NCBI RefSeq assembly: GCF_014207235.1
Contig: NZ_JACHDA010000008.1
Span: forward strand, 124,001-188,000
Reading direction: 5' to 3'
DNA: 64,000 bases
DNA from: Sphingopyxis sp. JAI128
Lineage (GTDB): Bacteria > Pseudomonadota > Alphaproteobacteria > Sphingomonadales > Sphingomonadaceae
The position numbers and the translations under genes are program-made. Shown here piece after piece: positions 17,187 through 58,805 of this stretch. The notes below the pieces were generated by a model. It had not been told where the DNA came from. It ran no database searches and saw only the letters and a list, made by a program, of their open reading frames with translations. Positions within the stretch are counted from its first letter, which is position 1. Each line of letters opens with the position of its first letter.

Positions 17187-17204
17187 TTTTGTCTAAGTAT
17201 TATT
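17187..17204 (+). promoter_or_regulatory. Motif A site (small ORF/GH62/GH6 promoter)
   Basis: TTTTGTCTAAGTATTATT; one base (A for G) departs from the core TGTCTGAGTA. It sits just before the ribosome site of the small minus-strand ORF and shares an intergenic region with another motif A site at 17309. Confidence 0.6.
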
Positions 17205-17308
17205 CGGCTGCACATAGCCTTGGTTCCGGAGAAAATTCAAGCTGATCCACACACAACCAGTGATTATTGCGGTAGAAACAGGTGCGATGTTGACCAAAAT
17301 TTCCTCCA

Positions 17309-17326
17309 TATATACTCATACATTTT
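17309..17326 (-). promoter_or_regulatory. Motif A site (esterase-GH2 promoter)
   Basis: TATATACTCATACATTTT; its reverse complement gives TGTATGAGTATATA. The TATACT inside it (17311-17316) lies exactly 15 nt after TTGACC (17290-17295), the same layout as the site at 21383, so the operator probably overlaps the -10 element of the esterase promoter. Confidence 0.75.
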
Positions 17327-17378
17327 CAGCCAGCTCTAGAATCGGCAGCGGCCGCGTTGCAATGGGAGAGGCCAGGAC

Positions 17379-18350
17379 ATGTCGAATTTCAGCCGCCGTG
17401 CGGTGTTGGGTGCGGGAATCGCGCTTGCCTCCACCCCGCATGTAGTCCTGTCGAATTCGGGCGACGAAACCGTCGAACTGTGGCCGGGAACACCGCCGGG
17501 CGCGACGCACGCGTCCATCGCACGCAAGGTCGACGATCAATCGCGCGACCCCGCCAGACCCGACCGCTGGATCAGCGGGATCGACCGGCCCGTGCTGGTG
17601 GTCCGGCGCCCAGCGCAGCCCAATGGTGCAGCGGTCCTGGTCGTTCCGGGAGGAGGCTATTGGTTCCTGTCCTACGACAATGAGGGGATCAGCCAGGCCG
17701 ACTGGCTCAATGCGCGGGGTATCACCGCGTTCATCCTGCTGTATCGCCTGCCCAATGAAGGCTGGCAGCAGCGCGAAAACGTACCTTTGCAGGATGCGCA
17801 GCGGGCGATGCGCCTGATCCGGTCCCGGGCACAGCATTTCGGCATCATGCCGGATCGCGTCGGCGTGCTGGGCTTTTCCGCTGGCGGCCATCTGGCGGGA
17901 TCGCTGGCCACATGCCATGCCGAATCCGTTTATACCCCTGTCGATGAGGCCGACCGCTTTCCGGCACGGCCCGATATTGCCGGCCTCATCTACCCGGTGA
18001 TCAGCCTCGATGCGCCTTTCACCCACGGGGGTTCGCGTGCCGCCTTGCTCGGCCAGAACCCGACAGAAGCGTCTCGCAAAGCGCGTTCGGTAGAGCACCG
18101 CGTCACGGCCGACACGCCCCCGGCATTCCTCATGCACGCCGCCGATGACGGGACAGTGCCTGTCGCCAACAGCCTCGCCCTGTTTCAGGCGATGCAGGCG
18201 AAAGCTCGCCCCGCCGCACTCCATATTTTCGAGCGAGGCGGGCACGGCTTTGGCGTGCGGTTGCCCGCGAGCGAACCCGCGTCGGCCTGGCCGGAGCTGT
18301 TCGCCGCCTTCGCCGCCAGGCAGCGAATTTTCGCGCAACAACAAAATTGA
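17379..18350 (+). CDS. Exported alpha/beta-hydrolase, probable acetyl-xylan-type carbohydrate esterase
   Basis: Likely removes acyl groups from plant polysaccharide fragments. The 323 residues have a Tat-like N-terminus (SRRAVLGAGIALAS), an oxyanion segment VVPGGGYWFLSYDNEG, the nucleophile elbow GVLGFSAGGH (Ser ~165), the acid Asp in MHAADDGTVPV and the His in FERGGHGFG. The fold is that of small esterases and BD-FAE-like acetyl-xylan esterases, often annotated vaguely as endo-xylanase. It leads an operon with the GH2 gene 47 bp downstream and has a motif A site at its promoter. The exact acyl group and glycan cannot be read from sequence. Confidence 0.8.
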   Translation: MSNFSRRAVLGAGIALASTPHVVLSNSGDETVELWPGTPPGATHASIARKVDDQSRDPARPDRWISGIDRPVLVVRRPAQPNGAAVLVVPGGGYWFLSYDNEGISQADWLNARGITAFILLYRLPNEGWQQRENVPLQDAQRAMRLIRSRAQHFGIMPDRVGVLGFSAGGHLAGSLATCHAESVYTPVDEADRFPARPDIAGLIYPVISLDAPFTHGGSRAALLGQNPTEASRKARSVEHRVTADTPPAFLMHAADDGTVPVANSLALFQAMQAKARPAALHIFERGGHGFGVRLPASEPASAWPELFAAFAARQRIFAQQQN

Positions 18351-18397
18351 TTGTCCGCCCTGCCCAGAGGGCAAGAACAGGTTCGAGAGGAGAGGTC

Positions 18398-21382: not shown

Positions 21383-21398
21383 TATATACTCATACAAA
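21383..21398 (-). promoter_or_regulatory. Motif A site (sugar permease-dgoK-dgoA promoter)
   Basis: TATATACTCATACAAA shares its first 14 bases exactly with the site at 17309. TTGACG (21364-21369) lies 15 nt before the embedded TATACT (21385-21390), matching that promoter's geometry. Confidence 0.78.
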
Positions 21399-21424
21399 TA
21401 AGATTCAGGAGAGGATTGAATCGC

Positions 21425-22768
21425 ATGCCTGCCATTCCCCAAGCAACCCATACCCCTGCTCCGCCGCACGAAAAATCGGGCGGCTATGGAAAGCCGCTGG
21501 CGTTGCTCGCCAGTCTTTTCTTCATGTGGGGCTTCATCACGGTCATCAACAACACGCTGCTACCGCACCTGCGCAGCGTGTTCGAACTCGATTATACGCA
21601 GACCACATTGATCGAATCGGTCTGGTTTATCGCCTATGCGGTCGCGTCCATGCCCGCAGCGTTCCTGATCGAGCGCGTCGGCTACAAGAAGGCGATCATC
21701 ATCGGCCTTCTGGTCATGGCCGCGGGGGCGCTCGGCATGGTCCCCGCCGCCCGCCTCCCCTCTTATGAGATAACTTTGCTCGCGCTGTTCGTGATCGCGT
21801 GCGGTATCGCGCTGCTGCAGGTGGCCGCCAATCCCTATGTGGCCGTGATCGGGCCACCGGAATCGTCGGAATCGCGCCTCACGCTGGTGCAGGCATTCAA
21901 CTCGATGGGCACCTTCTTCGCTCCCTATTTCGGCGGCTACCTCATCCTCAGCCGGACGACCGGCGGGACGTCGCTCGAGGGTGCCCAACTCACCCATGCC
22001 GAGCGGCTGGCCGACGCGCAGGCGACCCAACTGCCCTATGTCATGGTCGCGGGGGTGCTTGTCCTGATCGCCCTGGTCTTCTGGCGCGCGAAGCTGCCCG
22101 CCTTGGGAGCGGCCACCCGCCGAGCCCATGCATCCGAGCGGACAACCATCCCGCTGTGGAAGGTCTGGGCGCACCCCATCTACAAGCATCGCAACCTGGC
22201 TTTCGGCATTCCTGCGATCTTCATCTATCTGATCGCCGAAATCGGCGTCGCAAACCTCTTCATCAACTTCGCGATCCTGCCCGAGATCGCCGGGATCACG
22301 CCCGCGCAGGCGGCCAATTATCTGGTGCTACTGTGGGGCGGCATGATGGTCGGCCGCTTCGCCGGCGCCTTCATCATGCGCGCCTTTCCCGCCGACAAGG
22401 TGCTCGCCGTCTATGCGTCCGCCGCTTTCCTGGTGATGATCGGCGCCGCCACACTGCACGGGCCGCTGGCGATGTGGTGCCTGATCCTCGTCGGCCTTTG
22501 TCATTCGATCATGTTTCCTGCAATCTTCGCCATGGGGATAAAGGGTCTGGGGCCGCTGACCGAAGAGGGCTCGGGCCTGCTCATCATGGCGATCGCCGGC
22601 GGCGCGCTGGTCGTGGTGCAGGGCTGGCTGGCCGACACCGTGGGTCTGCAGAACAGCTTCTGGCTCACCGTCGTCTGTGAAGTCTATATCATCTTCTACG
22701 CGCTGTGGGGCAGCAAGCCGACCCACGCCCTGCCGCCGGAACAACTGAGTGATCCGGAACAGGCATAA
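21425..22768 (+). CDS. Sugar:H+ symporter of the FucP/GluP (FHS) major-facilitator family
   Basis: Inner-membrane importer of 447 residues with 12 predicted helices. The first helix LLASLFFMWGFITVINNTLL carries the Gly-Phe-x3-Asn-Asn pattern of the fucose/galactose/glucose permease family. LQVAANPYVAVIGPPESSESRL and LTLVQAFNSMGTFFAPYFGG are also hallmarks of it. The likely start is ATG 21425, 9 nt after GGAGAGG. It heads a tight cluster with dgoK and dgoA and probably brings galactose (or glucose or fucose) released in the periplasm into the cytoplasm. Which hexose it prefers cannot be told. Confidence 0.88.
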   Translation: MPAIPQATHTPAPPHEKSGGYGKPLALLASLFFMWGFITVINNTLLPHLRSVFELDYTQTTLIESVWFIAYAVASMPAAFLIERVGYKKAIIIGLLVMAAGALGMVPAARLPSYEITLLALFVIACGIALLQVAANPYVAVIGPPESSESRLTLVQAFNSMGTFFAPYFGGYLILSRTTGGTSLEGAQLTHAERLADAQATQLPYVMVAGVLVLIALVFWRAKLPALGAATRRAHASERTTIPLWKVWAHPIYKHRNLAFGIPAIFIYLIAEIGVANLFINFAILPEIAGITPAQAANYLVLLWGGMMVGRFAGAFIMRAFPADKVLAVYASAAFLVMIGAATLHGPLAMWCLILVGLCHSIMFPAIFAMGIKGLGPLTEEGSGLLIMAIAGGALVVVQGWLADTVGLQNSFWLTVVCEVYIIFYALWGSKPTHALPPEQLSDPEQA

Positions 22769-22786
22769 CCGGCCGGGTCTCAGGCG

Positions 22787-23680
22787 ATGATCGAACCGCG
22801 CATCGTCGGGGACTGGGGCAGCACGCGCCTCAGGCTCTGGCGCCTGGAGGAAGGCCAGGTCACGGACAGGCGCGAAGGCCCTGGCGTGATCGGCCTCCAA
22901 CTGGCTCCCGCCGATGTGCTGCTGGATGCGATCGCGTCCTGGCGTGCGGATGGCGCCAGGCGCGTCACCCTGTGCGGCATGGCGGGCGCGCGGGGCGGCC
23001 TTTATGAGGCCGGCTACGCCCCCTGCCCTCTCGATGCCCCCCAATGGGCAGAGCGGACGGCTGCCTTCGCGCTTGACGGCCTTGCCGTCCGTATCGCCGC
23101 CGGATGCGCGCACGACCGCGGCGGCGGCTTTCGCGACCTGATGCGCGGCGAGGAAACGCAACTGTTCGGCGCAATGGCGCTGAACCCAGCGCTGACGGTG
23201 GGCCGGCATCTGCTGATATTGCCGGGCACGCACAGCAAATGGGCCGTGGTCGACAATGGCCGCATCGCCAGCTTTCGCAGCTTTCTGACCGGGGAACTGT
23301 TCGCCCGGCTCCGGGGATCCAGCCTTCTGCCCGAGCCCGCGAGTGCGCCGGGCGGCGAAGAGGCGGCTTTCGCCGCTGGCGTTGAGGCGGCACGCGATGG
23401 CGGGCTGCTCGGCAATCTGTTTCTCACCCGCTCCGCGCAGGTGGACGCGGGGGAGTCGCCCGAATGGGCATCGACCTTTCTGTCCGGCCTTCTAATCGGA
23501 AGCGAATGCGTCGAAATGACCGGCACTGCCCCTCCCGCTGCGCTGGTTCGCATCATCGGCGCGCCAGGCTTGGCGGAGCATTATGCAGCGGCACTGGCCC
23601 GGTTCGGAGCCGGTACCGAGCGACTCGATGCGGACGCCTGCACCCTCGCCGGATTAAGGATGATCGATGCCTATGATTGA
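22787..23680 (+). CDS. dgoK: 2-dehydro-3-deoxygalactonokinase
   Basis: Phosphorylates 2-keto-3-deoxygalactonate in the De Ley-Doudoroff galactose pathway. The 297 residues show the DgoK pattern: N-terminal phosphate-binding GDWGSTRLRLWRL, LCGMAGARGGLYEAGY, RGEETQLFGAM, LPGTHSKWAVVDNGRI and FLTGELFARL. It starts 18 bp after the permease and overlaps the aldolase gene by 14 bp, so the three are co-translated. With DgoA it defines galactose catabolism; the preceding galactose oxidation step is probably done by the dehydrogenase at 29063. Confidence 0.93.
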   Translation: MIEPRIVGDWGSTRLRLWRLEEGQVTDRREGPGVIGLQLAPADVLLDAIASWRADGARRVTLCGMAGARGGLYEAGYAPCPLDAPQWAERTAAFALDGLAVRIAAGCAHDRGGGFRDLMRGEETQLFGAMALNPALTVGRHLLILPGTHSKWAVVDNGRIASFRSFLTGELFARLRGSSLLPEPASAPGGEEAAFAAGVEAARDGGLLGNLFLTRSAQVDAGESPEWASTFLSGLLIGSECVEMTGTAPPAALVRIIGAPGLAEHYAAALARFGAGTERLDADACTLAGLRMIDAYD

Positions 23681-24290
23681 TGAACTGCTGGCGGCGGGCG
23701 CTCCGCCCATTGTCGCGATATTGCGCGGTATCCAGCCCGATGAAGCGCTTGGTGTGACGGCGGCGCTGGTCGACGCCGGCATTCGCATGATCGAAGTGCC
23801 GCTGAACTCCCCCGAGCCGCTGGCGAGCATCGCGGCCATGCAGGAACGCTTTGGCGAGCGCGTTTTGATCGGCGCGGGCACGGTGCTGACGGTCGAGGCG
23901 GTGGATGCCGTTGCCGACACGGGCGCGCGCCTGATCGTCACGCCGAATTCCGCCCCCCACGTCATCGCGCACTCCGTGGAGCGCGGTCTGGAGGTCATGC
24001 CGGGCTGCATGACGCCGACCGAAGCCTTCGCCGCCCTCTCCGCAGGAGCGCGGCGGCTCAAGCTCTTTCCGGCCGGATCGCTCGGCATCGGGCATTTCAA
24101 GGCGATGCGCGAAGTCTTGCCGAAAAATGTCGGGGTCTGGGCGGTGGGCGGCGTCGACGCAACCAACGCTGCCACGTGGATGGCCGCCGGTGCCGCCGGG
24201 GTTGCCGCCGGGGGCAGCCTCTATCGTCCGGGCCGGACCGCCGAAGACATTGGCCGGATTGCGCGCGATCTGACCGTGGCGCTCGCCTGA
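23667..24290 (+). CDS. dgoA: 2-dehydro-3-deoxy-6-phosphogalactonate aldolase
   Basis: Splits KDPGal into pyruvate and glyceraldehyde-3-phosphate. The 207 residues form a class I aldolase barrel of the KDPG/KDPGal family: PIVAILRGIQPDEAL with catalytic Glu-equivalent context, IEVPLNSPEPL, LIGAGTVLTVEAVD, IVTPNSAPHVI, and the Schiff-base Lys in LKLFPAGSLG. The LNSP wording favours the galactonate over the gluconate enzyme. AAGGA lies six nt upstream of ATG 23667. It overlaps dgoK and is followed 89 bp later by the mutarotase gene, which has its own motif A site. Confidence 0.93.
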   Translation: MPMIDELLAAGAPPIVAILRGIQPDEALGVTAALVDAGIRMIEVPLNSPEPLASIAAMQERFGERVLIGAGTVLTVEAVDAVADTGARLIVTPNSAPHVIAHSVERGLEVMPGCMTPTEAFAALSAGARRLKLFPAGSLGIGHFKAMREVLPKNVGVWAVGGVDATNAATWMAAGAAGVAAGGSLYRPGRTAEDIGRIARDLTVALA

Positions 24291-24341: not shown

Positions 24342-24357
24342 TTTGTCTGAGTATATT
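24342..24357 (+). promoter_or_regulatory. Motif A site (mutarotase-dehydratase promoter)
   Basis: TTTGTCTGAGTATATT, one of the best matches to the consensus, 22 bp before the mutarotase ATG. Confidence 0.75.
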
Positions 24358-24379: not shown

Positions 24380-25525
24380 ATGGCGTCGACATTTGGCACC
24401 GTTGGAAAGGTAGCAATCGCAATGGCCGTCGGCATCGCTTCGCCCGCATTCGCCGCCACCGCAAGCAAGCAGTCCTTTGGATCGCTCGCGGACGGAACAC
24501 CGGTCGAACGCATCACCCTGACCAACGCGAATGGCGTCTCGGCGAGCGTCATCACGCTCGGCGCAACGCTCCAGTCGCTGATGGCGCCCGACCGCGACGG
24601 CAAACCGGGCGACGTCATCCTCGGCCACGACACGGCGCAGGAATATCTGGTCAAGCCGCAATTTTTCGGCGTCAGCGTCGGCCGCTTTGCCAACCGCATC
24701 GGCGGGGGCCGCTTCACCCTCGACGGCAAGGAATATGTGCTCGAAACCAATGACGGTCCGAACCACCTTCACGGCGGCCTCAACGGCTTCGACAAGCGGA
24801 TGTGGACGGTCGAGTCGCTGAAGAACGGGTCGGAGGCGCGCGTGGTGCTGCGCTATGTCAGCCCCGACGGCGAAGGCGGCTATCCTGGCACGCTGACGTC
24901 CACTGTAACCTACGCGCTGAACGAAAAGAACGAACTTTCGATCGAATATCGCGCGACGACGGACAAGCCGACGATTGTCAATCTGACCAATCACGCCTAT
25001 TTCGACCTGTCGGCCGGCACCGCGCCGGGCGGCGTGATGGATCACAAGCTGACGCTCCAGGCCGACAGCTTCACGCCGGTCGATGCGACGCTGATCCCTA
25101 CCGGCGAACGGCGATCGGTTACCGGGACGCCCTTTGACTTCCGTCGGCCCACACCGGTTGGCGCGCGCGTCCGCGACGGCCGCGACGACCAGATCCGTAT
25201 CGGCACGGGCTATGACCATAATTTCATTATCAACGGGACGGCAGGAACGCTGCGCCCCGCCGCCCGACTGGAAGATCCGCTGTCGGGGCGGGTGATGGAC
25301 ATGTTCGTCACTGCGCCGGGCGTGCAATTCTATTCGGGCAACTTCCTTGATGGCAGCGTCATGGGGCGGAACGGTCGCATATACCGTCAGGGCGACGGAC
25401 TGTGTCTGGAACCGCAAATCTTCCCCGATGCGCCGAACAAGCCCGATTTCCCGTCGGCACGGCTCGATCCCGGACAGACATATGTGAACAAGATGGTTTT
25501 GCGCTTTTCCTCGTCAGGCAAATGA
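24380..25525 (+). CDS. galM: Aldose 1-epimerase (mutarotase), exported
   Basis: Interconverts alpha and beta anomers of free sugars; here in the periplasm, since a signal peptide ends at PAFA-ATA (~residue 25). The 381 residues carry the GalM motifs [39 protein letters not shown] (first catalytic His), [12 protein letters not shown] (second His), [12 protein letters not shown] and the Glu in [22 protein letters not shown] 24380 is supported by GGGAGAG upstream; ATG 24356 has none and lies inside a motif A site. The dehydratase gene follows by 25 bp. Confidence 0.93.
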
Positions 25526-25550
25526 TCACCGCAGAAGGTTTTCGAAGATT

Positions 25551-27356
25551 ATGACAGACAATAATTCCAACGAGCGGCCAAAGCTTCGTTCGCGCGCCTG
25601 GTTCGACGACCCGGCCAACGCCGACATGACCGCGCTCTATCTTGAGCGGTATATGAACTTCGGCCTGTCGCTCGAGGAACTCCAGTCGGGCAAGCCGATC
25701 ATCGGCATCGCGCAGACGGGCAGCGACCTGTCGCCCTGCAACCGTCATCACATCACGCTCGCCGAACGCGTTCGCGAGGGTGTGCGCGAGGCGGGCGGCA
25801 TCGTGATCGAGTTTCCGGTCCACCCGATCCAGGAAACCGGCAAGCGGCCCACCGCCGGGCTCGACCGCAATCTCGCCTATATCGCGCTGGTCGAGGTGCT
25901 GTTCGGCTATCCGCTCGACGGCGTCGTGCTGACCATCGGCTGCGACAAGACGACCCCGGCCTGCCTGATGGCGGCGGCGACGGTCAACATTCCCGCGATC
26001 GCCCTGTCGGTCGGCCCAATGCTCAACGGCTGGCACAAGGGCGAGCGCACGGGATCGGGCACGATCGTGTGGAAGGCGCGCGAACTGCTGGCAGCAGGCG
26101 AGATCGACTATAAGGGTTTCATCAAGCTCGTCGCCTCCTCCGCGCCGTCGACCGGTTATTGCAACACCATGGGCACCGCGACGACGATGAACTCGCTAGC
26201 CGAGGCGCTGGGCATGTCGCTGCCGGGATCGGCGGCGATCCCCGCACCCTATCGCGACCGGCAGGAATGCGCCTATCGCACCGGCCTCCAGATCGTCGAG
26301 ATGGTTGCGGCCGACCGCAAACCGAGCGACGTGATGACGCGCGAGGCCTTCATCAACGCGATCCGCGTCAATTCCGCGATCGGCGGCTCGACCAACGCGC
26401 CCATTCACCTCAACGCCATCGCGCGCCATCTGGGGATCGAATTGTCGGTCGACGACTGGCAGACGTTCGGCCGCGAAGTTCCGTTGCTCGTCAATCTTCA
26501 GCCCGCGGGCGAATATCTGGGCGAGGATTATTACCGCGCGGGCGGCGTGCCCGCCGTTGTCGCCGAACTGATGAAACAGGGATTGATCGAGGAACGCGCA
26601 CTCACCGTCAACGGGCGGACCATCGGCGAGAATTGCCATGAAGCAGAGATCGAGGACGAGCGCGTGATCCGCCGGTTCGATCAGCCGCTGAAGCCCGCTG
26701 CCGGTTTCTCCGTGCTGCGCGGCAACCTGTTTGACAGCGCCATCATGAAGCTATCGGTGATCTCGCCCGAATTCCGTGAGCGTTACCTGTCCAACCCCGA
26801 CGACCCCGATGCGTTCGAAGGGCCGGTGGTCGTGTTCGACGGCCCCGAGGACTATCACGACCGCATCGACGATCCGGCGCTCGGGATCGATGCGAGCACA
26901 TTGTTGATCATGCGCGGGGCGGGACCGGTCGGCTATCCAGGCGCGGCCGAGGTCGTGAACATGCGGCCCCCGGCGTATCTCATCAAGGCAGGCATCCATG
27001 CCCTTCCCTGCATCGGCGACGGGCGGCAGTCCGGCACCTCGGGTAGTCCGTCCATCCTCAATGCCTCCCCCGAAGCGGCAATGAACGGCGGCCTCGCGCT
27101 GCTGAAAACGGGCGACCGGGTTCGCATCGACCTGCGGAAGGGCGAGGCCAATATGCTGATCTCCGACGAAGAACTGGCGCGGCGGCGGGCGGAGCTCGAG
27201 GCCGCGGGCGGCTATTCCTATCCGGCCCACCAGACGCCGTGGCAGGAAATGCAGCGCGCCGTTGTCGGTCAGGTCGAAACCGGCGCGGTGCTCGAAACGG
27301 CGGTCAAATATCAGCGGCTGGCCCAGACCGTCGGCGTACCAAGGCACAATCACTAA
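25551..27356 (+). CDS. IlvD/Edd-family sugar-acid dehydratase (pentonate/galactonate type)
   Basis: Iron-sulfur dehydratase turning an aldonate into 2-keto-3-deoxyaldonate. The 601 residues match the pentonate-dehydratase clade: [51 protein letters not shown] and [20 protein letters not shown]. These provide three Cys for a cluster, plus [16 protein letters not shown]. The N-terminal wording is very close to L-arabonate dehydratases, but xylonate and galactonate enzymes of this family look alike. It is the only aldonate dehydratase in the window, while three oxidative routes (arabinose, xylose, galactose) need one. A promiscuous enzyme is possible. Ends before a strong terminator. Confidence 0.9.
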
Positions 27357-27507: not shown

Positions 27508-29037
27508 TTATTCCACCATGACAACCGCGATCGACTTGGCAGGCAGGTCGAACGCCAGCTTACCGCCTGCCAGCTTGCCCGAATAGCTCGCCGGCTTGAT
27601 CGCATCGGGCTTTGTAAAGCTGTTGTGCGCGTCGATCGTCGTGCCGCTCAGCACCCTGCCCTTCGCCTTGCCGGTCAGGTTGGTGGTGACACGCGCCGCC
27701 TTGTCGGGATCGACATTCACGAGCGCCAGCCAGAGCTTGCCATCCGTTCCGCGCGCCGCCGACACATCGACCGAAGGAATGCTGACATCGCCCAGCACAT
27801 AATTCGGCCCCGTCGCGCGCGCCGGATACGGCGTCGCACCCTGAAAAGGCACATACATGTCGAACACATGATAGGTCGGGGTGAGGACCATTTTGTCCTT
27901 GTCGGTCAGTATCATCGCCTGAAGAACATTCACCATCTGCGCAATATTGGCGATCCGCACCCGGTCGGTATGGCGGTGGAAGATGTTGAGCGTCAGCGCG
28001 GCGACCTGCGCGTCGCGCAGGCTATTCTGCTGATAGAGGAAGCCTGGCGTCGATCCCGGTTCCTGATCGTACCAGGTGCCCCATTCGTCGACCGCGAGGA
28101 TCACCTTCTTTTCGGGATCATATTTGTCCATGATGACACTATGCCGCGTAACCAACTCATCCATCCGCAGCGCATTTTTGAGCGTGCTGGCCCATTCCGT
28201 TTCGGAAAAACCCGTCGCCTGCCCCTTCTTCGCCCAGTCCTTGGGAATGGTGTAATAATGGAGGCTGATCGCTTCCACCTGCGTCCCCGCGCGCTGCATC
28301 AGCACTTCGGTCCAGTTGTAATCATCGGCGTTCGCGCCGCTCGCGACCCGTACCGTACTTGGCGCATGCAGCCCGGCATAGGAGCTGAAACGGCGCGTCA
28401 GATCCGCCGCATATTCGACGCGCATCTGTCCGCCGCAGCCCCAGCTTTCGTTGCCGACGCCGACATATTTCACGGTCCAGGGCTTCTCGCGGCCATTGGC
28501 GCGGCGCTCCTGCGCCAACGCGGAAGAACCGTCGGCCGTCATATATTCCAGCCACCGCGCCATCTCGCGGGGCGTACCCGATCCCATATTGGCGGCGACA
28601 TAGGCGTCGGCGCCGATCAGTTCGGCAAAATCAAGGAATTCATGGGTGCCAAAGGCATTGCTTTCGGGCACCCCGCCCCAGAATTTGTTCAATCGCACCG
28701 GGCGCTTGTCGCGCGGGCCGATGCCGTCGCGCCAGTCATAATCGTCGGCAAAGCAGCCGCCGGGCCAGCGCACCATCGGCACCTTGATCTTGCGAAGCGC
28801 CTCGACGACGTCGGTGCGATAACCCTTGGTATTGGGAATGCTTGAATCGGGACCGACCCAGATACCTTCGTAGATGCCGCGCCCCAGATGCTCGGCAAAA
28901 TGGCCATAGACGGCGCGCTCGATCTTCGGTCCCGGCTTGCTGGTGTCGATGGTCACGTTCACATCGACCTGCGCCTGCGCGCCGGAAGCCATGAGCATGG
29001 CGGACGCCGCCAACAGCGCGCGATTCAATAGCTTCAC
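27508..29037 (-). CDS. GH51 alpha-L-arabinofuranosidase, exported
   Basis: Retaining enzyme that frees L-arabinose from arabinan or arabino-oligosaccharides. It has 509 residues, with a signal peptide ending at SGAQA-QVD, unusual in that many GH51 enzymes are cytoplasmic. Motifs are [49 protein letters not shown], acid/base Glu in [12 protein letters not shown], and nucleophile Glu in [12 protein letters not shown]-terminal beta-sandwich follows. The GTG start at 29037 follows GGGAGAGGGAAGA. Last gene of the arabinose operon, 25 bp after the dehydrogenase, so release and oxidation of arabinose are co-expressed. Confidence 0.93.
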
Positions 29038-29062
29038 TCTTCCCTCTCCCTCATTATCGTTT

Positions 29063-29986
29063 TCACGTCCATTCGAACGGCTCGACGGCGACACGCCGGC
29101 CCAACAGAAAGGCATCCGCCACCAGGCGGAAGGGGGTCAGATCGATATCGCGACGCCCTTCGGCGATGAGCTGCGCGAAATGGCGATAGATCCGCGGATA
29201 CTCGCCTTCATCGCCGACATCGACCGCTGCGCCGTCGATCGCCATGCGCGACGCGCCGTCGGCCAGGGTGAGCAGGCCGCGATCGGTTTCTATGTCGATC
29301 GTCCAGGTCTGCGGACCGCGCTGGTCGAAATCGAAGGCGACATGAACCGGGACACCGCCGCTGTCGAGGCGCAGGTCGGCGGCGATCGGCGCCTGCCGGT
29401 TCGAGGGGAAGCGCAGTTCCGCCTGCTCGAGCATCAAAGTGTCGGGCAGCAGCCGGGTGATCACCGACAGGGCGTTAATGCCGGGGTCGAACACGCCGAT
29501 GCCCGGTTCCCAGATCCACTCCTGCCCCGGATGCCACACGCGGACGTCTTCCTTCCAGTTGATCGTGACCTTATGGATCGTCCGGTCGCTCAACCATGCG
29601 AGCGCAGGGTCGACCGCAGCGGCGGCACGCGAGTGCCAGGACGCGAAAAACGTCCGGCCAGCCTCGGCCGCCATGCCTGCAAACGCTTCCGCTTCGTTCA
29701 ATGTCGCCGCCGGGGGCTTTTCGATCATGACATGCAGCCCATGTGCCAGCGCCTGCTCGACAAGCGCGAGCCGTCCACGCGGCGGCGTGCAGATCGAAAT
29801 GGCCCTCACTTGCGGCATGGCTGCCATCATCGCGCCAATGGTCCGGAAGGCCGGCACGCCCTGCGGAGGCTCATGGCCCGTCACCGCGGCGACCAGTTCG
29901 AAATCGGTGCTCGCCGCCAGCGTCGGGACATGCTGATCGCGGGCGATCTTGCCGATCCCGGCAAGCGCTATCGGCAGCGCGCTCAT
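29063..29986 (-). CDS. L-arabinose / D-galactose 1-dehydrogenase (Gfo/Idh/MocA family)
   Basis: NAD(P)-dependent oxidation of the sugar to its lactone, first step of the oxidative route. The 307 residues start with the Rossmann segment [70 protein letters not shown] and [18 protein letters not shown] follow. The EKPP and WKEDVRxWHPGQ strings are diagnostic of the arabinose/galactose dehydrogenase group known from Azospirillum and pseudomonads, whose members accept both sugars. ATGA overlap with the AraD1 gene. In this locus it could serve arabinose (with AraD1 and semialdehyde dehydrogenase) and galactose (with DgoK and DgoA). Confidence 0.9.
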
Positions 29987-30978
29987 AGCGGCAAAACGCT
30001 GGTTTGCGCGGGTGCGGCCCGGCCAAGCGGGTTGCGCAGCGGCAGAGAGAAGGGCGCAGCCGAAATCTCGAATATATCGCCGTCGATCAGTGATACATCG
30101 TCACTGAAGGACAGAGTTGCGGTCCCGAAGAAATGGACATGAATGTCGCCGGGGCGACGGAACAGGCCATATTTGAAATGATGATATTCCAGATTGGCGA
30201 TGGAATGGGCCATGTTGAGTTCGCCCGTGACGAAGGGCTTTTCCCATAGCGTATCGCCATTGCGAACAATGCGGCTGACGCCCTGCACATCGTCCGGCAG
30301 CGGGCCGGTCAGCAATTCGGGGCCAATCGCTGCCTGACGCAATTTGGAATGGGCAAGCCACAGATAATTGCCCCGCTCCGTCACATGGTCCGAAAATTCA
30401 TTGGCCAGAGCGAAACCGAGACGTCGCGGCACCCCATCGCCGTCGATCAGATAGATGCCCGCAATCTCCGGCTCCTCGCCTCCGTCGAGCGCGAAGTCGG
30501 GGGAGAGGAGCGGCGCACCGGGTGGCACCAGGCAGCTGCCGTCGCCCTTGTAGAACCATTCGGGCTGGGCTCCGGGTCGGCCGTCGGCCGGTTTGCCACC
30601 CTCGACACCCATCTGGAACATGCGCAGCGAGTCGGTCGTCGCGCCGTCGGCGGCCGCCTTGTGCATCTTGTCGCGCCCCTCGGCTGAGCCCAGATGAGTC
30701 AGGCCGGTGCCGGTGAGGTAGAGGTGGGCCGGATCGGGATGGTCGATCGGCGGCAGGATACGCCCTTCTTCCAACGCCTGGCCGAGGTCCACCGCCACGC
30801 CCTTCCGCGCCAGCGCGGCGTCGGGGAGCGATACACCGTCCGCCAGTGCCAGCCGCGCCAATTCATAGCTGGTGGGCACGCCGTTCACTTCGAATGGCGC
30901 GCCCTGACCATCGCAGGCCGAAAGGGTTCGTCGGCCGTCGGCCATGCGCAGTTGCACCAATCGCAATGCCATCGTCAT
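29983..30978 (-). CDS. L-2-keto-3-deoxyarabinonate dehydratase, GguC/AraD1-type FAH-fold enzyme
   Basis: Converts L-2-keto-3-deoxyarabinonate to 2-oxoglutarate semialdehyde. The 331 residues match the GguC/AraD1 family of the fumarylacetoacetate-hydrolase fold: RLVQLRMADGRRTLS near the start, HLYLTGTGLTHLGSA, KMHKAAAD, QPEWFYKGDG, GEEPEIAGIYLI, LGFALANEFSDHVTERGNYLWLAHSKLR and DIHVHFFGTATLSF. The paired Glu residues in GEEPEIAG are likely metal ligands of this fold. Second gene of a four-gene operon, 22 bp after the semialdehyde dehydrogenase. This enzyme is different from the XylX-like dehydratase at 35028, which belongs to the xylose branch. Confidence 0.87.
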   Translation of the reverse strand: MTMALRLVQLRMADGRRTLSACDGQGAPFEVNGVPTSYELARLALADGVSLPDAALARKGVAVDLGQALEEGRILPPIDHPDPAHLYLTGTGLTHLGSAEGRDKMHKAAADGATTDSLRMFQMGVEGGKPADGRPGAQPEWFYKGDGSCLVPPGAPLLSPDFALDGGEEPEIAGIYLIDGDGVPRRLGFALANEFSDHVTERGNYLWLAHSKLRQAAIGPELLTGPLPDDVQGVSRIVRNGDTLWEKPFVTGELNMAHSIANLEYHHFKYGLFRRPGDIHVHFFGTATLSFSDDVSLIDGDIFEISAAPFSLPLRNPLGRAAPAQTSVLPL

Positions 30979-31000
30979 TATCCCGCGATCCCGTCCTGTT

Positions 31001-32578
31001 TCATTCGGCCATAAGCCGGCCGTCCAGCCGGTGCGGAAGGCCTTGCTGCGCCCCCGGTTTCAGCACATCGGGCAGCAGGCTAGCCGGGAAGTCCTGATAG
31101 CAGACCGGGCGCAGGAACCGCTCGATCGCGCGCGTGCCCACCGAAGTACTGCGGCCGTCGGACGTCGCGGGAAACGGACCACCATGCACCATCGCGTGGC
31201 AAACCTCGACGCCGGTCGGCCAGCCATTTGCGATCAGGCGCCCGGCCTTCTCTTCGAGCAGCGGCACGAGACGAGCGACCAGGGGCTCGTCGGCCGCGGC
31301 GAAATGGACCGTCGCGGTGAGTTGCCCTTCCAGCCCCGCGACGACCCGCGCCAGCGCCGCCTCGTCAGCGCAGCGGACAAGGACGGACGACGCGCCGAAC
31401 ACTTCCTGCGACACATGCTCATCGGTCAGGAAGTCATCGGCCAAGATCGAAAACAGCGCCGCCTGCCCCTGATGCGGGCCCTGCGCGTCCTTGCCGCGCG
31501 CGAGCGCGGCGACACGGGCATTGCCGATCAATTGCCCGACACCCTTTTCATAAGCGGCATGGATCGCCGGCGTCAGCATCGTCGCGGCAGACGCTTCGGT
31601 GACGGCCTGCGTGGCCGCGGCCACGAAACGGTCGAGCGCCGGTCCTTCCAATCCAAGAACGAGGCCGGGGTTGGTGCAGAATTGGCCCGCACCCATCGTA
31701 AGCGACGCCACATAGGCCGCACCGAGCGCCTCGGCCTTCTCCTCCAGCATCGCCGGCATCAGCAGGACGGGGTTGATCGCACTCATTTCCGCATAAACGG
31801 GAATCGGAACGGGACGCCGGGCAGCGATATTCATGAGGGCGAGCCCCCCCGCCCGCGAACCGGTAAAGCCAACCGCGCGAATCCGAGGGTCGGCCACAAG
31901 CGCCGCGCCAACATCGTTCGATACCGCATTCAGCAGCGAGAAAACGCCCTCGGGCAGGCCCGAGGCAGCCACCGCGCCAGCGATGGCGCCCGCCACCAGT
32001 TCCGACGTCCCGGGATGCGCCGGATGCCCCTTCACGACCACCGGACAGCCCGCCGCCAGCGCGGAGGCCGTGTCTCCCCCCGCCACCGAGAAGGCGAGCG
32101 GGAAATTCGACGCGCCGAACACTGCCACCGGGCCGAGCGGGACGTTACGCGAGCGCAGGTCGGATCTCGGCAAGGGCTGCCGGTCGGGTATCGCGGGATC
32201 GACGCGCAGCCCCAGCCAGCCCCCGTCGCGCACCTCTGCGGCGAACAGACGGAGTTGCCCCACCGTCCGGCCGCGTTCGCCGGCAAGCCGGGCGAGCGGC
32301 AGGCCGGTCTCAAGATGTGCACGCTCCAGCAGTTCATCGCCGAGCCGTTCGATATTGTCCGCGATCGCCTCGAGGAAAGCCGCGCGGTCGGAAAGCGGCC
32401 GCGTCGCATAGTCCCTCGACGCCGCCTCGGCGAGCACGCAGGCCCGACTCACATGCTCCGGATTCGCGGCGCCGAACGGGGGCTCCAGCGGATGGCCCGT
32501 TTCGGCCTCTATCCCGCGAAAATGCTCGCCAGCGGCGACGCGCCCCTGTCCGATGAAGAGTTCGCCGGTAAGTGTCAC
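31001..32578 (-). CDS. 2-oxoglutarate semialdehyde dehydrogenase (aldehyde dehydrogenase family)
   Basis: Last step of the Weimberg-type routes, giving 2-oxoglutarate for the citric-acid cycle. The 525 residues show the KGSADH subgroup pattern: N-terminal [60 protein letters not shown] for cofactor binding, [11 protein letters not shown], catalytic Glu in [11 protein letters not shown], catalytic Cys in [10 protein letters not shown], and [15 protein letters not shown] 32578 has GGGAG six nt upstream. First gene of the arabinose operon, with a motif A site 37 bp upstream. It is the only such dehydrogenase in the window, so the xylose branch must share it. Confidence 0.9.
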
Positions 32579-32614: not shown

Positions 32615-32630
32615 ATAACTCAGACATTAT
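32615..32630 (-). promoter_or_regulatory. Motif A site (arabinose operon promoter)
   Basis: AATAACTCAGACATTA, reverse complement TAATGTCTGAGTTATT, 37 bp before the GTG start of the semialdehyde dehydrogenase and just downstream of the GntR gene. Confidence 0.75.
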
Positions 32631-33531: not shown

Positions 33532-33547
33532 TTTTGTATGAGAAATA
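33532..33547 (+). promoter_or_regulatory. Motif A site (GntR / antiporter intergenic region)
   Basis: TTTTGTATGAGAAATA; the core TGTATGAG is kept and GTA is replaced by GAA. It is placed for autoregulation of the GntR gene and possible control of the antiporter. Confidence 0.65.
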
Positions 33548-33642
33548 ACGAGCCGATTCGAAGCCCGGCCGACAGGAGCGACGCCTTCGGCGGCAAGCTA
33601 TCGGCAATGGGTCGAGCGAATGGCTTGAGTAAGGGGGCGCGC

Positions 33643-34961: not shown

Positions 34962-35001
34962 TTGACAAGCGCAACCTACGCGCGGAATGGTAGCGGTATC
35001 A
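34962..35001 (+). promoter_or_regulatory. Promoter and motif B operator of the xylose operon
   Basis: TTGACA at 34962-34967 is a good -35. The LacI-type palindrome TGGTAGCGGTATCA (34988-35001) covers the -10 region, a repressor position, and ends 26 bp before the XylX start. Confidence 0.75.
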
Positions 35002-43677: not shown

Positions 43678-43691
43678 TGTTATCGCTATCA
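43678..43691. promoter_or_regulatory. Motif B operator (GH2 / GH5-remnant promoter)
   Basis: TGTTATCGCTATCA, palindromic around the central CG, immediately next to a motif A core. Confidence 0.72.
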
Positions 43692-43706
43692 TCAGACAAA
43701 TATAAT
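43692..43706 (-). promoter_or_regulatory. Motif A site adjoining motif B (GH2 promoter)
   Basis: TCAGACAAATATAAT; the reverse complement has TTTGTCTGA, but the following bases are TGATAG rather than GTAWW because motif B begins there. Confidence 0.6.
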
Positions 43707-44120: not shown

Positions 44121-45176
44121 CTATTGTAGCGGCGCGGTCGTCTCACGCGGGATCAGCGTGAAGTCCACGATTTCACACCGCTCGAGCGGCTCGTCGCCGT
44201 TGCGCGAAGCGATATCCGCCATCAGGATTTGCAGCGCCGCGCACGACATGTCCGAAATCGGCTGGCGGACGGTCGTCAACTCCGGCCATATGGTGGTTGC
44301 CAGGGCCGTATCGTCGAAACCGCAAACGGTGAGTTGGCGCGGAACATCGATGGCCCTGCGATGTGCCGCGGCGACGGTTGCGGCTGCCATATCATCGTTG
44401 CTTGCAAAGATCGCCGTGGGGCGTTCGGGTAGGTCGAGCAGACGCTCGGCGGCGGCGAGACCGGACCGATAGGTAAACAGGCCCGGTGCAATCAACGCGG
44501 GATCCACGTCGATCCCCGCTTCGGTCAGAGCCGCGACATAGCCTTCGCGTCGACGGCCGCTCGCGGCCTGATCCGGACTGCCCTCGATAAAGCCGATCCG
44601 CCTGTGGCCAAGCGATAGAATATAATCGGTCATGGCGCGTGCCGCATCGAAGTCGTCGATATTCACTGACGATATACCCTTGATCGGCAGACCCGAAGCG
44701 ACGGCGACCGCCGGGATTTTCTCCCTGCGCACCAGATCGGCCAGTTCCGGCGAGTTACACAAGGGCGGCGGCAGGATCAGGCCGTCGATCCGGCTGTCGA
44801 GCAGATGTCGGGCGGCAGCGATCTCGCCCCCGGCATCGCATTTCTCTACGATCAACTGGACATCGTTCCGGCGCGCCTCGTCAAGACTTCCGACGAGAAA
44901 TTCGCTCAGATAGGCAGCACTGGGGTTGCTGTAGAGCAAGCCGATCCGCACCCCCCCGCCAGCCGCCAGCCGCCGCGCAGCAATATTGGGAGAATAGTCG
45001 AGTTCAGCGATCGCTCGCTCTACGGATTCACGCGTCGCCGACCGGACATTCTTGCCGCCATTGATGACGCGCGATACCGTCATTGGGGAAACGCCAGCCT
45101 TTGCAGCGACTTCGCTGATCGTCACCTCGCCGCGACCGCGCCTCGACCCGCGCACCGATCCATTGCCATTCGTCAT
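44121..45176 (-). CDS. LacI-family transcriptional regulator, candidate xylose/xyloglucan repressor
   Basis: The 351-residue protein has an N-terminal helix-turn-helix, VTISEVAAKAGVSPMTVSRV, and a hinge LDYSPNIAARRLAAGG. The sugar-binding domain contains RIGLLYSNPSAAYLSEFLVG, LILPPPLCNSPELADLV, YILSLGHRRIGFIEGSPDQ, AIFASNDDMAAATVAAAHRR and VCGFDDTALATTIWPELTTVRQP. Start chosen at ATG 45176, which gives the normal length; the longer frame from 45302 would run through the operators. Divergent from the GH3-GH35-GH31 operon; a motif B site at 45265 lies between them. It is the natural candidate to bind motif B and repress both sides. XylR-like function is an inference. Confidence 0.9.
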   Translation of the reverse strand: MTNGNGSVRGSRRGRGEVTISEVAAKAGVSPMTVSRVINGGKNVRSATRESVERAIAELDYSPNIAARRLAAGGGVRIGLLYSNPSAAYLSEFLVGSLDEARRNDVQLIVEKCDAGGEIAAARHLLDSRIDGLILPPPLCNSPELADLVRREKIPAVAVASGLPIKGISSVNIDDFDAARAMTDYILSLGHRRIGFIEGSPDQAASGRRREGYVAALTEAGIDVDPALIAPGLFTYRSGLAAAERLLDLPERPTAIFASNDDMAAATVAAAHRRAIDVPRQLTVCGFDDTALATTIWPELTTVRQPISDMSCAALQILMADIASRNGDEPLERCEIVDFTLIPRETTAPLQ

Positions 45177-45264: not shown

Positions 45265-45278
45265 TGATAGCGCTCCCA
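45265..45278. promoter_or_regulatory. Motif B operator (LacI / GH3 divergent promoter)
   Basis: TGATAGCGCTCCCA, with the central GCGC and outer TG..CA kept; 72 bp before the GH3 ATG and 89 bp before the LacI ATG, and 5 bp from a motif A site. Confidence 0.7.
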
Positions 45279-45282: not shown

Positions 45283-45298
45283 ATATGTATGAGTAATG
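45283..45298 (+). promoter_or_regulatory. Motif A site (GH3-GH35-GH31 promoter)
   Basis: ATATGTATGAGTAATG, a strong match to TGTATGAGTA, 39 bp before the GH3 start codon. Confidence 0.78.
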
Positions 45299-54195: not shown

Positions 54196-54215
54196 TGGTA
54201 ACGCTACCATACAAG
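54196..54215. promoter_or_regulatory. Composite motif B and motif A site (GH29 / CE20 divergent promoter)
   Basis: TGGTAACGCTACCA (54196-54209) is the most symmetrical motif B copy. A motif A core, TTGTATGGTA on the minus strand, occupies 54206-54215 and overlaps its last four bases, so the two proteins could not easily bind at once. Confidence 0.7.
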
Positions 54216-56186: not shown

Positions 56187-56384
56187 ACGGAGCAACAGCC
56201 ATCCAGAGCTTCCGGCGTCATTGACCTGCTGATGAACGCAGGGGCGAAGTCTTGCCCGCCCCGATGACGCCGAACTCCTTCCCGGTATTTCGAGAAATCA
56301 AACCCAATGGCAGCAATTCGACTGCCCGCCGAAAACGATACGGAACGAGCCGAACGATCAAATAATATAAGGGGAGAGCATGTG

Positions 56385-58589
56385 ATGAATATTCGACGTA
56401 CCGGCCGCTGGTCAGCCACGGCTTTGCTGGGCTGTTGTCTCTTATTCTCCGGCACACTCTTTACGCCCTCCCCTTCCGCGGCGCAGCAGGCGGCGCCTTA
56501 TGTGTGGCAGACGGTGCCCTTTGGCGGCGGCGGTTATGTCGATGGTTTCGTCTATCACCCGCGCGAGAAGGGTCTTCTCTATACGCGAACCGACATCGGC
56601 GGGCTTTATCGTTATGATTATTCGGCGAAGCGCTGGATCCCCCTCACCGATCATCTGGACCGACAGGATGGCGACCTTATGGGCGTCCTCAGCATCGCGC
56701 TCGATCCCGCCAATCCCGATAAAGTCTATGCGGCGACCGGCCTCTATCTCGGCCAATGGTCGCGCAAGGGCGCGATCCTCCGGTCCAATGACCGGGGTCA
56801 AAGCTGGCAAAAGGTCGATCTTCCCATTCATGTGGGCGGCAATTCCGACGGGCGCGGCAGCGGCGAACGCCTCATCGTCGATCCGCACAATTCCGACATA
56901 GTCTATTATGGCTCCAACGAGGACGGCCTGTGGAAGAGCGCGGACGGCGGGCAGAGTTTCGCGCGCACATCCGCCTCCACCCGCACCTTCAGCCTCGTCG
57001 CAGCCGATCCTTCGAAAAGCGGCACGCTGTGGGCCGGTACAGCCGATGGCGAAGGCGCCCTCTTGCTGAGCACGGACGGCGGCCAATCCTTCGCGCCGGT
57101 TCAGGGGCCCCCCGCAATGGTGCCCCAGCGCCTGGCCTTCGCTCCCGACGGGTCGCTCTATGTCGCTTTCGCCAAGGGCGAAGGAAAAGTCGTCGTCAAC
57201 CCCAGCCATGCCAGGACCGGCGCCGTTTGGAAGCGGGACGGCAACTCCGGCAAATGGCGCGACGTCACGCCGAAAGGCCCCTTCCCCAACGTCGGCGGCG
57301 GCTACTCTGGCATCGATGTCTCGCGCGACGGAACCGTCGCCGTGTCGACGCTGAACCGCTGGCATCCGGGCGATGAAGTCTACATGTCCCGCGATGGCGG
57401 CGAGAGCTGGACCGGCTTGCAGGAAAAGTCGCGCCATCTGTCGACAGCCTATCCCTGGCTGGTCGATTACCTCAAGGGTGAGGACAAGATGGGGCACTGG
57501 ATTTCGGACCTGAAGTTCAACCCGTTCAATCCCGACGAGATGGTCTACGGCACCGGTTACGGCGTATGGATGAGCCGTAATCTTGCGTCGGTGCAGGCCG
57601 ATCAGAAGGTTGAATTCGACTTTGCGGTCAACAACCTCGAGGAGACGGCAACCTTGCAGCTGGTGTCGCCGACCCGCGGCGCCAGGGTTATGGCGGCAAT
57701 GGGCGATATCGGTGGCGCCACCTGGGACGATCTGACCCGCACACCGCGTATAGGCCTCCTCACCCCGAACAACGAGAATAATTTCAGCATCGACTATGCC
57801 GGCCTCAAGCCCGGAATGGTCGTGCGCACTACCGCGAATTCACCGACCAACGGCTTCACGTCGCAGGACGGAGGCGAGAACTGGGAACCCTTCGTATCGA
57901 CGCCTTACAGGCGGCCTGCGCAGGGCGAAGGCTGGCGCAGCGCAGGCACGATCGCGATCTCTGCTGCAGGATCCTCGCTCGTTTGGGCTCCCGAAAAGGA
58001 CGGTGCCTATTATTCGAAGGATGGCGGCACGAGCTGGCAGCGTTCCGCCGGATGGCCGACCGACCAGTCGCTGCGGCCCATCGCCGACAAAGTCGCCGAC
58101 GGCATCTTCTATGTCTTCGACCGGTCCACTTCGCGCATCCTGGCGAGCGGCGACGGCGGCGCGCAGTTCAATGTCCTCGTCGAAGGGCTTCCCACGTTCG
58201 AACCATGGCAAAATGTCCAGCTCGCCGTCGTGCCGACCCGCGTCCGCGACCTGTGGCTGGCGACCTCGACCGGCCTGTTCCATTCACCCGACAGCAAGTC
58301 GAAGATGGTCCAGATACGCAATGTGGACGAGCCTTGGCTCATTTCGTTCGGGGCCCCGACGGTCAAAGGCAACTATCCCGCCATTTTCCTGTGGGGCAAG
58401 GTCAAGGGGGTCGAGGGATTGTGGCGGTCGGACGACAAGGCCGCAAGCTGGGTGCGGATCAACGACGATGCCCATCGTTACGGCGAACTGCGCGCGATCG
58501 CAGGCGACTGGATCGAGCCCGGCACGCTCTATATCGCACCGCACGGCCGCGGCGTGATTGCGGGGCGGCCGGCCGCGCCGGGATCCTGA
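56385..58589 (+). CDS. GH74 endo-xyloglucanase, exported
   Basis: Inverting endo-hydrolase that cuts the xyloglucan backbone, the enzyme that defines this locus. The 734 residues form two seven-bladed propellers after a signal peptide (WSATALLGCCLLFSG…SAAQ). Blade signatures are GGGGYVDGFVYHPREKGLLY, the catalytic Asp in TRTDIGGLYRYD, RSNDRGQSWQKVDLP, GRGSGERLIVDPHNSDIVYY and STDGGQSFAPV. The second catalytic region is at AAMGDIGGATWDDLTRTP, and SKDGGTSWQRSAGWP follows. No carbohydrate-binding module. ATG 56385 follows GGGGAGAG; the longer frame from 56307 is not needed. Probably co-transcribed with CE20, as no motif A or B site precedes it. Confidence 0.94.
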   Translation: MNIRRTGRWSATALLGCCLLFSGTLFTPSPSAAQQAAPYVWQTVPFGGGGYVDGFVYHPREKGLLYTRTDIGGLYRYDYSAKRWIPLTDHLDRQDGDLMGVLSIALDPANPDKVYAATGLYLGQWSRKGAILRSNDRGQSWQKVDLPIHVGGNSDGRGSGERLIVDPHNSDIVYYGSNEDGLWKSADGGQSFARTSASTRTFSLVAADPSKSGTLWAGTADGEGALLLSTDGGQSFAPVQGPPAMVPQRLAFAPDGSLYVAFAKGEGKVVVNPSHARTGAVWKRDGNSGKWRDVTPKGPFPNVGGGYSGIDVSRDGTVAVSTLNRWHPGDEVYMSRDGGESWTGLQEKSRHLSTAYPWLVDYLKGEDKMGHWISDLKFNPFNPDEMVYGTGYGVWMSRNLASVQADQKVEFDFAVNNLEETATLQLVSPTRGARVMAAMGDIGGATWDDLTRTPRIGLLTPNNENNFSIDYAGLKPGMVVRTTANSPTNGFTSQDGGENWEPFVSTPYRRPAQGEGWRSAGTIAISAAGSSLVWAPEKDGAYYSKDGGTSWQRSAGWPTDQSLRPIADKVADGIFYVFDRSTSRILASGDGGAQFNVLVEGLPTFEPWQNVQLAVVPTRVRDLWLATSTGLFHSPDSKSKMVQIRNVDEPWLISFGAPTVKGNYPAIFLWGKVKGVEGLWRSDDKAASWVRINDDAHRYGELRAIAGDWIEPGTLYIAPHGRGVIAGRPAAPGS

Positions 58590-58762
58590 CCCGGCATTTG
58601 GTCCACGACCGCCGGGGGCAAGGGCTTCGCCCGGATATGCCCCGACACTATCGCCGCTGGTCGAGTCGCGCAGGTGCCGAGACGGCCGCCACAGTAGTCG
58701 ACAGACCAAACCCCGCGATATGCCCGCCAAAACCGGGGATTGTTCAGTCGTTTAGGGACCAT

Positions 58763-58776
58763 TGTTACCGCTATCA
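58763..58776. promoter_or_regulatory. Motif B operator (xyloglucan receptor promoter)
   Basis: TGTTACCGCTATCA, 97 bp before the receptor ATG, followed by TTGACT (58786-58791) as a possible -35 and by a motif A site. Confidence 0.7.
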
Positions 58777-58790
58777 GATTTCATCTTGAC

Positions 58791-58805
58791 TAGTCAGACA
58801 AATAG
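58791..58805 (-). promoter_or_regulatory. Motif A site (xyloglucan receptor promoter)
   Basis: TAGTCAGACAAATAG, reverse complement CTATTTGTCTGACTA; the core TTTGTCTGA is exact and the tail is C-TA instead of G-TA. It lies just downstream of TTGACT. Confidence 0.65.

Follow-up and report, generated by a model that had tools for sequence, protein, structure and literature searches.

A conserved promoter word and its candidate GntR/FCD regulator at sugar-oxidation genes of sphingomonads

The use of D-galactonate by E. coli is under the control of DgoR, a GntR/FadR repressor for which the IR1 operator is given as CTAAATTGTAGTACAACAATAT (PMC12288454) and the residues D146, H150 and H195 as metal ligands (PMC7674646). 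Operators of the FadR subfamily are summarized by the consensus NyGTM-N0-1-KACNy in a source that also describes, for FarR, NagQ, BioR and NanR (proteins of the FadR and HutC subfamilies), sites of other symmetry or of none (PMC4494728). AraR2 of Halomonas, another member of the GntR family, is described as a predicted controller of oxidative L-arabinose/L-arabinonate genes (Leyn et al. 2017, PMC5507952). The present work deals with a stretch of 64,000 nucleotides of Sphingopyxis sp. JAI128 (contig NZ_JACHDA010000008.1, positions 124,001 to 188,000), which as a whole is called the window from here on, and in which a short asymmetric word, motif A, recurs in promoters around the gene of a GntR/FCD protein.

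In the original prediction, ten promoters with this word were read as a regulon of the GntR/FCD protein. We think it quite probable that motif A is the operator of this protein, which would repress sugar-acid catabolism as a DgoR-like dimer. In the window and in many genomes of the family Sphingomonadaceae the word is conserved, alongside the regulator, in promoters of genes predicted to serve the oxidative use of L-arabinose and galactose. The regulon looks like a new one for sphingomonads, with a regulator and an operator type that are familiar (FadR/FCD), and it looks interlaced with a second sugar repressor.

Motif A in the window and across the family

The regulator gene and the places of motif A are the following.

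32697-33455, minus strand: gene of the GntR/FCD regulator, 252 amino acids, DgoR-like, the proposed reader of motif A
17188-17201, plus strand: motif A, TTTGTCTAAGTATT, 11 base pairs (bp) upstream of a 67-amino-acid frame and 294 bp from the GH62 gene
17311-17324, minus strand: motif A, AATGTATGAGTATA, 55 bp before the esterase gene of an esterase-GH2 pair, with a TTGAC box at the fixed spacing
21385-21398, minus strand: motif A, TTTGTATGAGTATA, before a gluP/fucP-type permease-dgoK-dgoA operon, overlapping TATACT and with TTGAC at the fixed spacing
24342-24355, plus strand: motif A, TTTGTCTGAGTATA, before the aldose 1-epimerase and IlvD/EDD dehydratase genes
32615-32628, minus strand: motif A, AATGTCTGAGTTAT, before an aldehyde dehydrogenase-AraD1-oxidoreductase-arabinofuranosidase operon
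33533-33546, plus strand: variant of motif A, TTTGTATGAGAAAT, between the regulator gene and a divergent CPA2-type antiporter gene
43687-43700, minus strand: doubtful motif A, TTTGTCTGATGATA, before the GH2 gene
45284-45297, plus strand: motif A, TATGTATGAGTAAT, between lacI and the GH3-(GH35-like)-GH31 genes
58789-58802, minus strand: motif A, TTTGTCTGACTAGT, before a TonB-dependent receptor gene

The word first proposed for motif A, TTTGTMTGAGTAWW, is a consensus derived from ten listed promoter places. With up to three mismatches it has 14 matches in the window against 4.85 ± 1.90 in shuffles, none of the 100 shuffles reaching 14, and nine of the ten places are among them, at coordinates that differ from the listed ones by 0 to 5 bases. 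The tenth place, 54206, has no match at this threshold and had to be given up, the LacI-type operator TGGTAACGCTACCA (54196-54209) being found there. The site at 32615 has three mismatches to the proposed word and is an exact match to WWTGTMTGAGTWWW.

Because the consensus had been taken from the very same sites, independent evidence was sought. A weight matrix was trained on 90 sites from other genomes, picked with the general pattern WWTGTMnGASTWWW, so that the test is held out by genome and not by motif. Its ten best matches in the window include nine of the ten listed places, all nine outside genes (gene starts being those of our own reading), and the remaining one, 35085, lies inside a gene. 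In shuffled sequence, 0.055 matches per 64 kb are found at the score of 33533, the ninth of the ten best matches, and 0.5 at the score of 43687, the tenth. Motif A is real, with good sites at 17188, 17311, 21385, 24342, 32615, 33533, 45284 and 58789. They include one in the promoter of the regulator gene itself, as had been proposed (33533, a variant), and the pair 17311 and 21385, which do share 14 bases and the same distance to TTGAC. The site at 43687 is doubtful, since the nearest relative, Sphingobium sp. OAS761, keeps the adjoining LacI-type operator but not motif A.

The genome of the strain (4,100,189 bases in 15 contigs, the window being 1.6% of it) has five matches to the proposed word at up to one mismatch, and all five fall in the window. 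At up to two mismatches 9 of 14 matches are in the window; this count is given no weight, since the reversed word, with 20 matches, is no rarer.

Four sites, 21385, 24342, 32615 and 45284, are conserved in OAS761 against weaker flanks, with more than 30 identical bases at 45284. Counterparts found by eye there are L127:8812, before an esterase homologue, for 17311, and TTTGTACGAGAAAT for 33533, and 58789 is kept with one change in the core, GAT for GAC. The same strain carries TTTGTCTGAGTATT at L127:5788, a comparable site and possible counterpart of 17188; a GH31-like homologue lies behind it. In the window, the frame behind 17188 (16974-17177, minus strand) has a signal-peptide-like start and may be the remnant of a lost secreted enzyme. 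The CPA2-type cation/proton antiporter-like gene (33538-34857, plus strand) that diverges from the regulator gene adjoins the regulator in OAS761 as well.

A contig scan for the regulator gave seven loci, six of them with 69-88% identity; the proposed word at up to two mismatches has at least two copies in four of the six, one in L020 and none in L018. In 298 genomes of the family, a regulator relative was defined by E ≤ 1e-60 and the exact word by WWTGTMTGAGTWWW, which has T in the centre. A relative is present in 60 genomes and the word in 59, and the two occur together in 34, with the regulator by itself in 26, the word by itself in 25 and neither in 213 (p = 2.4e-13); co-occurrence with the regulator, which had been put forward as a check, is thus clearly positive. 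The 60 regulator genomes hold 83 of the 110 copies, 56 of these being no more than 20 kb from a regulator, against an expectation of 1.4%, and the 27 copies in the 238 genomes with no regulator amount to background level. The reversed word has 36 matches in the 298 genomes and none in the 60. One contig in these counts (C2 of G052) seems to repeat its ends, and four exact sites there were probably counted twice; the same four copies of motif A stand near both ends at equal distances, as if the replicon were circular.

Words were also searched for with no motif given. With the window and its nearest relative left aside, the most over-represented 9-mer of 79 regions surrounding relatives of the regulator is TGTCTGAGT (43 against 0.43 expected). 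Many of these regions had been chosen for holding the motif, and the search was therefore repeated on 40 regions that had been fetched for the remaining regulators irrespective of the motif; the exact word was known from three of them. Over these whole regions TGTCnGAGT ranks 4 of 18,538 words, a rank that it keeps when the three are removed. In their promoters (127 stretches, 24,856 bases) TGTCnGACT is first, in 26 stretches against 0.49 expected, and TGTCnGAGT second, in 23 against 0.37. Three other words, ACAGnTAGT, GGTTnTACA and TCAGnTAGA (regions L147-L186), are over-represented like the motif over whole regions and do not lead in promoters; they are probably coding words. Judged by these counts, what was first noticed by eye is a candidate regulatory word of the whole family and reaches beyond the one window for which the regulon had been proposed.

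The general pattern was counted over 1.67 Mb of regions, with 141 sites (136 without those seen twice) and none for its reversed form; 64 of 78 regulator rows have such a site in their region. Four of 75 regulator matches were left out of these regions (G083:C35, both of G156, and G275), and since L016 is the same locus as L139 and L019 overlaps L141, the 78 rows include one duplicate and the 141 sites five. T is the centre letter of 83 of the 141. All keep GTM-n-GA of the FadR consensus, and the C of its right half is kept in 32 (GAC) and replaced by G in 109 (GAG). By its letters, motif A looks like the FadR/FCD architecture in a form where the left half is firm, the centre is free to vary and the C of the palindrome's right half is mostly replaced by G. 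This asymmetric form can be taken as a variant with precedents, because sites of other symmetry or none belong to FarR, NagQ, BioR and NanR too. Direct-repeat and other palindrome readings were tried by eye and set aside, the centre-variant sites favouring GT-n3-A[C/G].

Regulon members and the regulator protein

The principal genes behind the sites form three groups.

21425-24290, plus strand: permease, dgoK and dgoA genes, a proposed operon under site 21385 (Pfam; NCBIfam gluP above its cut-off)
24380-27356, plus strand: aldose 1-epimerase and IlvD/EDD dehydratase genes, the latter an arabonate/galactonate dehydratase by context
27508-32578, minus strand: oxidative arabinose operon with genes for an arabinofuranosidase, a GFO/IDH oxidoreductase, AraD1/GguC and an aldehyde dehydrogenase, both dehydrogenase roles being assigned by context

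The NCBIfam cut-offs are passed by AraD1/GguC and by the gluP-type permease. They are not reached for the arabonate-dehydratase and α-ketoglutaric semialdehyde (KGSA) dehydrogenase models, so that these two roles rest on context. In relatives, 103 of 125 sites lie where a gene homologous to one in the window begins (from 30 bp inside to 350 bp upstream), which bears out the expected concentration before sugar genes. Such a site is found at 36 of 50 permease, 32 of 45 epimerase, 26 of 33 aldehyde dehydrogenase and 26 of 76 regulator homologues, and at 16 of 48 homologues of the IlvD/EDD dehydratase, 10 of 46 of AraD1, 8 of 23 of the receptor and 5 of 21 of a lactonase-like protein; the oxidoreductase (2 of 49), the GH51-type enzyme (2 of 39) and dgoK (1 of 8) follow, and homologues of the other window genes have none. 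Together, the site-bearing genes look like a predicted set for the oxidative use of L-arabinose, and galactose is probably included, since dgoK and dgoA come after the permease gene in the window.

The place of the polysaccharide genes is less general. Of all the regions read, those of the window and of OAS761 are the only ones where a site is directly followed by esterase, GH3, GH35-like and GH31 homologues, and in the relatives L161, L171 and L145 there are sites about 500 bp from GH2 or GH29 homologues. Most of the downstream genes first listed are retained. GH29/CE20 is to be removed, its site being a LacI-type operator; the GH2 gene at 41448-43565 is doubtful together with its site; and membership of GH62/GH6 is uncertain, because 17188 is so much closer to the remnant-like frame than to GH62.

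The regulator scores 42.7 bits for Pfam GntR (cut-off 27) and 89.5 bits for FCD (cut-off 24.3), and it belongs by its domains to the FCD (FadR) subfamily, with an N-terminal GntR winged helix-turn-helix and a C-terminal FCD domain. Its best match in the PDB, that is, the nearest solved sequence, is 7c7e, which is E. coli DgoR (PMC12288454). In the alignment D146 of DgoR corresponds to D164, H150 to H168, H195 to a histidine and R102 to an arginine, so the metal-ligand residues of the FCD pocket appear to be present. As DgoR is the nearest solved relative and these ligands align, a sugar acid is the likely effector; L-arabinonate is a guess from gene content. The protein is far below the cut-offs of the NCBIfam models of NanR, LldR, GlcC, PdhR, UxuR and others (11 listed, none of them for DgoR), and equivalog-level similarity to a named regulator, by which it could be called a DgoR orthologue, was not found.

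A tree of the 78 regulator rows splits by one change into a side with R68 and a side with Q68. The centre letter is T in 63 of 69 sites near R68 proteins and another letter in 49 of 57 sites near Q68 proteins, and the form of the operator thus appears tied to the regulator lineage. Residue 68 was considered as the one that reads the base and was set aside, as its role is not separable from clade history.

Shared promoters and competing explanations

Part of the window's promoters carry the marks of a second sugar regulator.

44121-45176, minus strand: LacI-family regulator gene (Pfam LacI and periplasmic binding domains), with its start at ATG 45176, GTG 45155 or GTG 45125
34988-35001, plus strand: LacI-type operator, TGGTAGCGGTATCA, before a FAA-hydrolase-like gene
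43678-43691, plus strand: LacI-type operator, TGTTATCGCTATCA, kept in OAS761
45265-45278, minus strand: LacI-type operator, TGGGAGCGCTATCA, with two mismatches, 5 bp from motif A 45284, kept in OAS761
54196-54209, plus strand: LacI-type operator, the place first read as motif A at 54206
58763-58776, plus strand: LacI-type operator, TGTTACCGCTATCA, 12 bp from motif A 58789

The LacI pattern TGKTAMCGCTAYCA at up to two mismatches has seven places in the window against 0.76 expected, namely these five, near gene starts, and 12537 and 59991, inside genes. A related pattern at up to one mismatch has five places in the genome, four of them in the window; as its reversed control has 44 matches, it is the concentration and not the number that is telling. 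The operator at 54196 is kept in OAS761 and the motif A-like part there is not, and at 43687 motif A would overlap the LacI-type operator 43678. Across the regions a LacI-like word lies within 60 bp of motif A at 8 of 140 sites against 0.57 expected, three of the eight being in the window (two of these among four hand-added sites, including the doubtful 43687), one in its relative, and two in L116 sharing one operator. In L116 (15222-15278) a perfect LacI-type palindrome, TGATAGCGCTATCA, has a copy of motif A on either side and lies close to a homologue of the TonB-dependent receptor, an arrangement that reads as a composite promoter in another genome. At L158:3455 the LacI-type word TGGTAGCGCTACCG directly adjoins motif A before a receptor homologue. 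The LacI protein probably shares two or three promoters with the motif A regulator, and joint control by both is plausible.

As for the promoters themselves, GTCAA (TTGAC on the other strand) lies 30 or 31 bases from the site start at 38 of the 47 TATA-type sites. By our reading, the TATA-type operator overlaps a TATACT -10-like box 15 bp from the TTGAC box, and promoter repression is likely because the sites often are at a fixed spacing from that box. GntR proteins are able to activate as well as to repress, which speaks for the possibility that the FCD protein reads motif A as an activator, or as both activator and repressor. We nevertheless regard this as unlikely, since the overlap with the -10-like box is a place typical of repression and DgoR, the nearest relative, is described as a repressor (PMC12288454).

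It is still less probable that another DNA-binding protein, the LacI protein at 44121 or an unlinked regulator, reads motif A, and that the FCD protein is only carried along with the arabinose cluster. For three window sites a LacI-type word does begin no more than 26 bp away from the start of the site. The LacI protein, however, has a distinct word of its own, and its homologues are present in few regulator regions (three counted), where motif A is common; besides, the core of the motif is of FadR type, and genomes with no FCD relative hold it at background level.

A promoter element, either an extended -10 or the site of a special sigma factor, could be suspected from the TATACT that the TATA-type sites contain at a fixed distance from TTGAC and from the many sites near start codons. 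This is very improbable, because the spacing is a property of the TATA-type sites and only 4 of the 89 others have GTCAA at the same offsets, and because motif A is found in both orientations with respect to the gene, depends on whether one regulator is present and has a centre letter that follows the clade of that regulator. Finally, although at two mismatches the genome has no more copies of motif A than of the reversed word, the idea that the ten promoters show it by chance or composition is rejected for the eight good sites with hardly any doubt, given the held-out matrix, the promoter word search in other genomes and the conserved islands in OAS761.

Several observations weigh against control by the FCD protein or narrow what can be said of it. 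The exact T-centre word is missing in 26 of the 60 regulator genomes, and for 14 of the 78 regulator rows the region lacks a general-pattern site. In a scan of 385 genomes of the class (E ≤ 1e-50), four have a regulator relative, three in the family, the window's own included, and one in another family (G633, L222), whose region has no general-pattern site; homologues of dgoK, dgoA, the oxidoreductase and the aldehyde dehydrogenase are nearby there. With one mismatch allowed, the general pattern has fewer matches in the strain's genome than its reversed control (50 against 76) and therefore cannot name members outside the cluster. Most of the residues of DgoR to which D-galactonate was docked, W181 and T191 among them, have no clear counterpart, which makes any particular effector a guess. 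The tie between centre letter and lineage counts as one historical event, because the R68/Q68 split is one change in the tree; genomes with two regulators are mixed, G057 and G217 agreeing with it, G147 agreeing in part and G262 disagreeing, and G091 has T-centre sites close to a Q68 protein.

If the FCD protein is the repressor, as we think, its dimer would cover the promoter and block RNA polymerase, the transporter-type sites including within the operator the TATACT box. Oxidation of L-arabinose or D-galactose would give a sugar acid (L-arabinonate, D-galactonate or a 2-keto-3-deoxy product), which would enter the metal-containing FCD pocket and release the protein from DNA. The genes of the permease, epimerase, dehydratase, dehydrogenases and receptor would thereby be induced, and so would that of the regulator. 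Polysaccharide genes (esterase-GH2 and GH3-GH35-like-GH31) also have the operator immediately in front of them in the window and in one close relative. As it adjoins a LacI-type operator at the GH3 and receptor promoters, two signals are probably required there. More tentatively, one FCD repressor lineage might be the sugar-acid switch of the sphingomonad family, with an asymmetric GTM-n-GAGT operator of unlike half-sites that is partly fused with the -10 box and whose centre letter shifted at a lineage split, while the LacI composite promoters would let polysaccharide genes open when sugar-acid and oligosaccharide signals are both there; for the whole of this picture our confidence is low.

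The reading would give a regulator, an operator and a gene list for arabinose and galactose use in a large bacterial family. In our opinion, natural sets of regulator and operator with a changed centre letter could be useful for understanding how FCD proteins read DNA, and the window offers a compact case of two sugar repressors that would share promoters.

Comparison with known systems

Among the matches listed, a literature search whose scope excluded RegPrecise and most subscription papers showed no such regulon described for sphingomonads, and a search for the exact word found nothing on bacterial regulation among the matches listed. The proposal that the word belongs to no described regulon is in line with this, but the core is of the FadR/FCD type, with a changed right half.

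The LacI-type sugar operators are alike in that TGKTAMCGCTAYCA palindromes stand beside lacI in the same cluster; they differ in being a separate word, presumably of a separate regulator. The operators of the FadR subfamily, as given by Suvorova et al. 2015 (PMC4494728), are matched by motif A in GTM-n-GA, and the difference is the G for C at one position of the right half in most sites.

AraR2 of Halomonas is the nearest precedent, alike in family and in target genes as far as its description goes. It belongs to a different class of bacteria, and control there is predicted only (PMC5507952).

With DgoR of E. coli the resemblance extends to the protein, through the nearest solved sequence and the aligned D146, H150, H195 and R102, to the genes, as dgoK and dgoA homologues lie behind site 21385, and to the operator, since the IR1 sequence reported for DgoR has the same TTGT left half. 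The right half differs from that of motif A, W181, T191 and other pocket residues are not clearly aligned, and the gene set of the window is centred on oxidative arabinose use and includes carbohydrate-active enzymes and a receptor.

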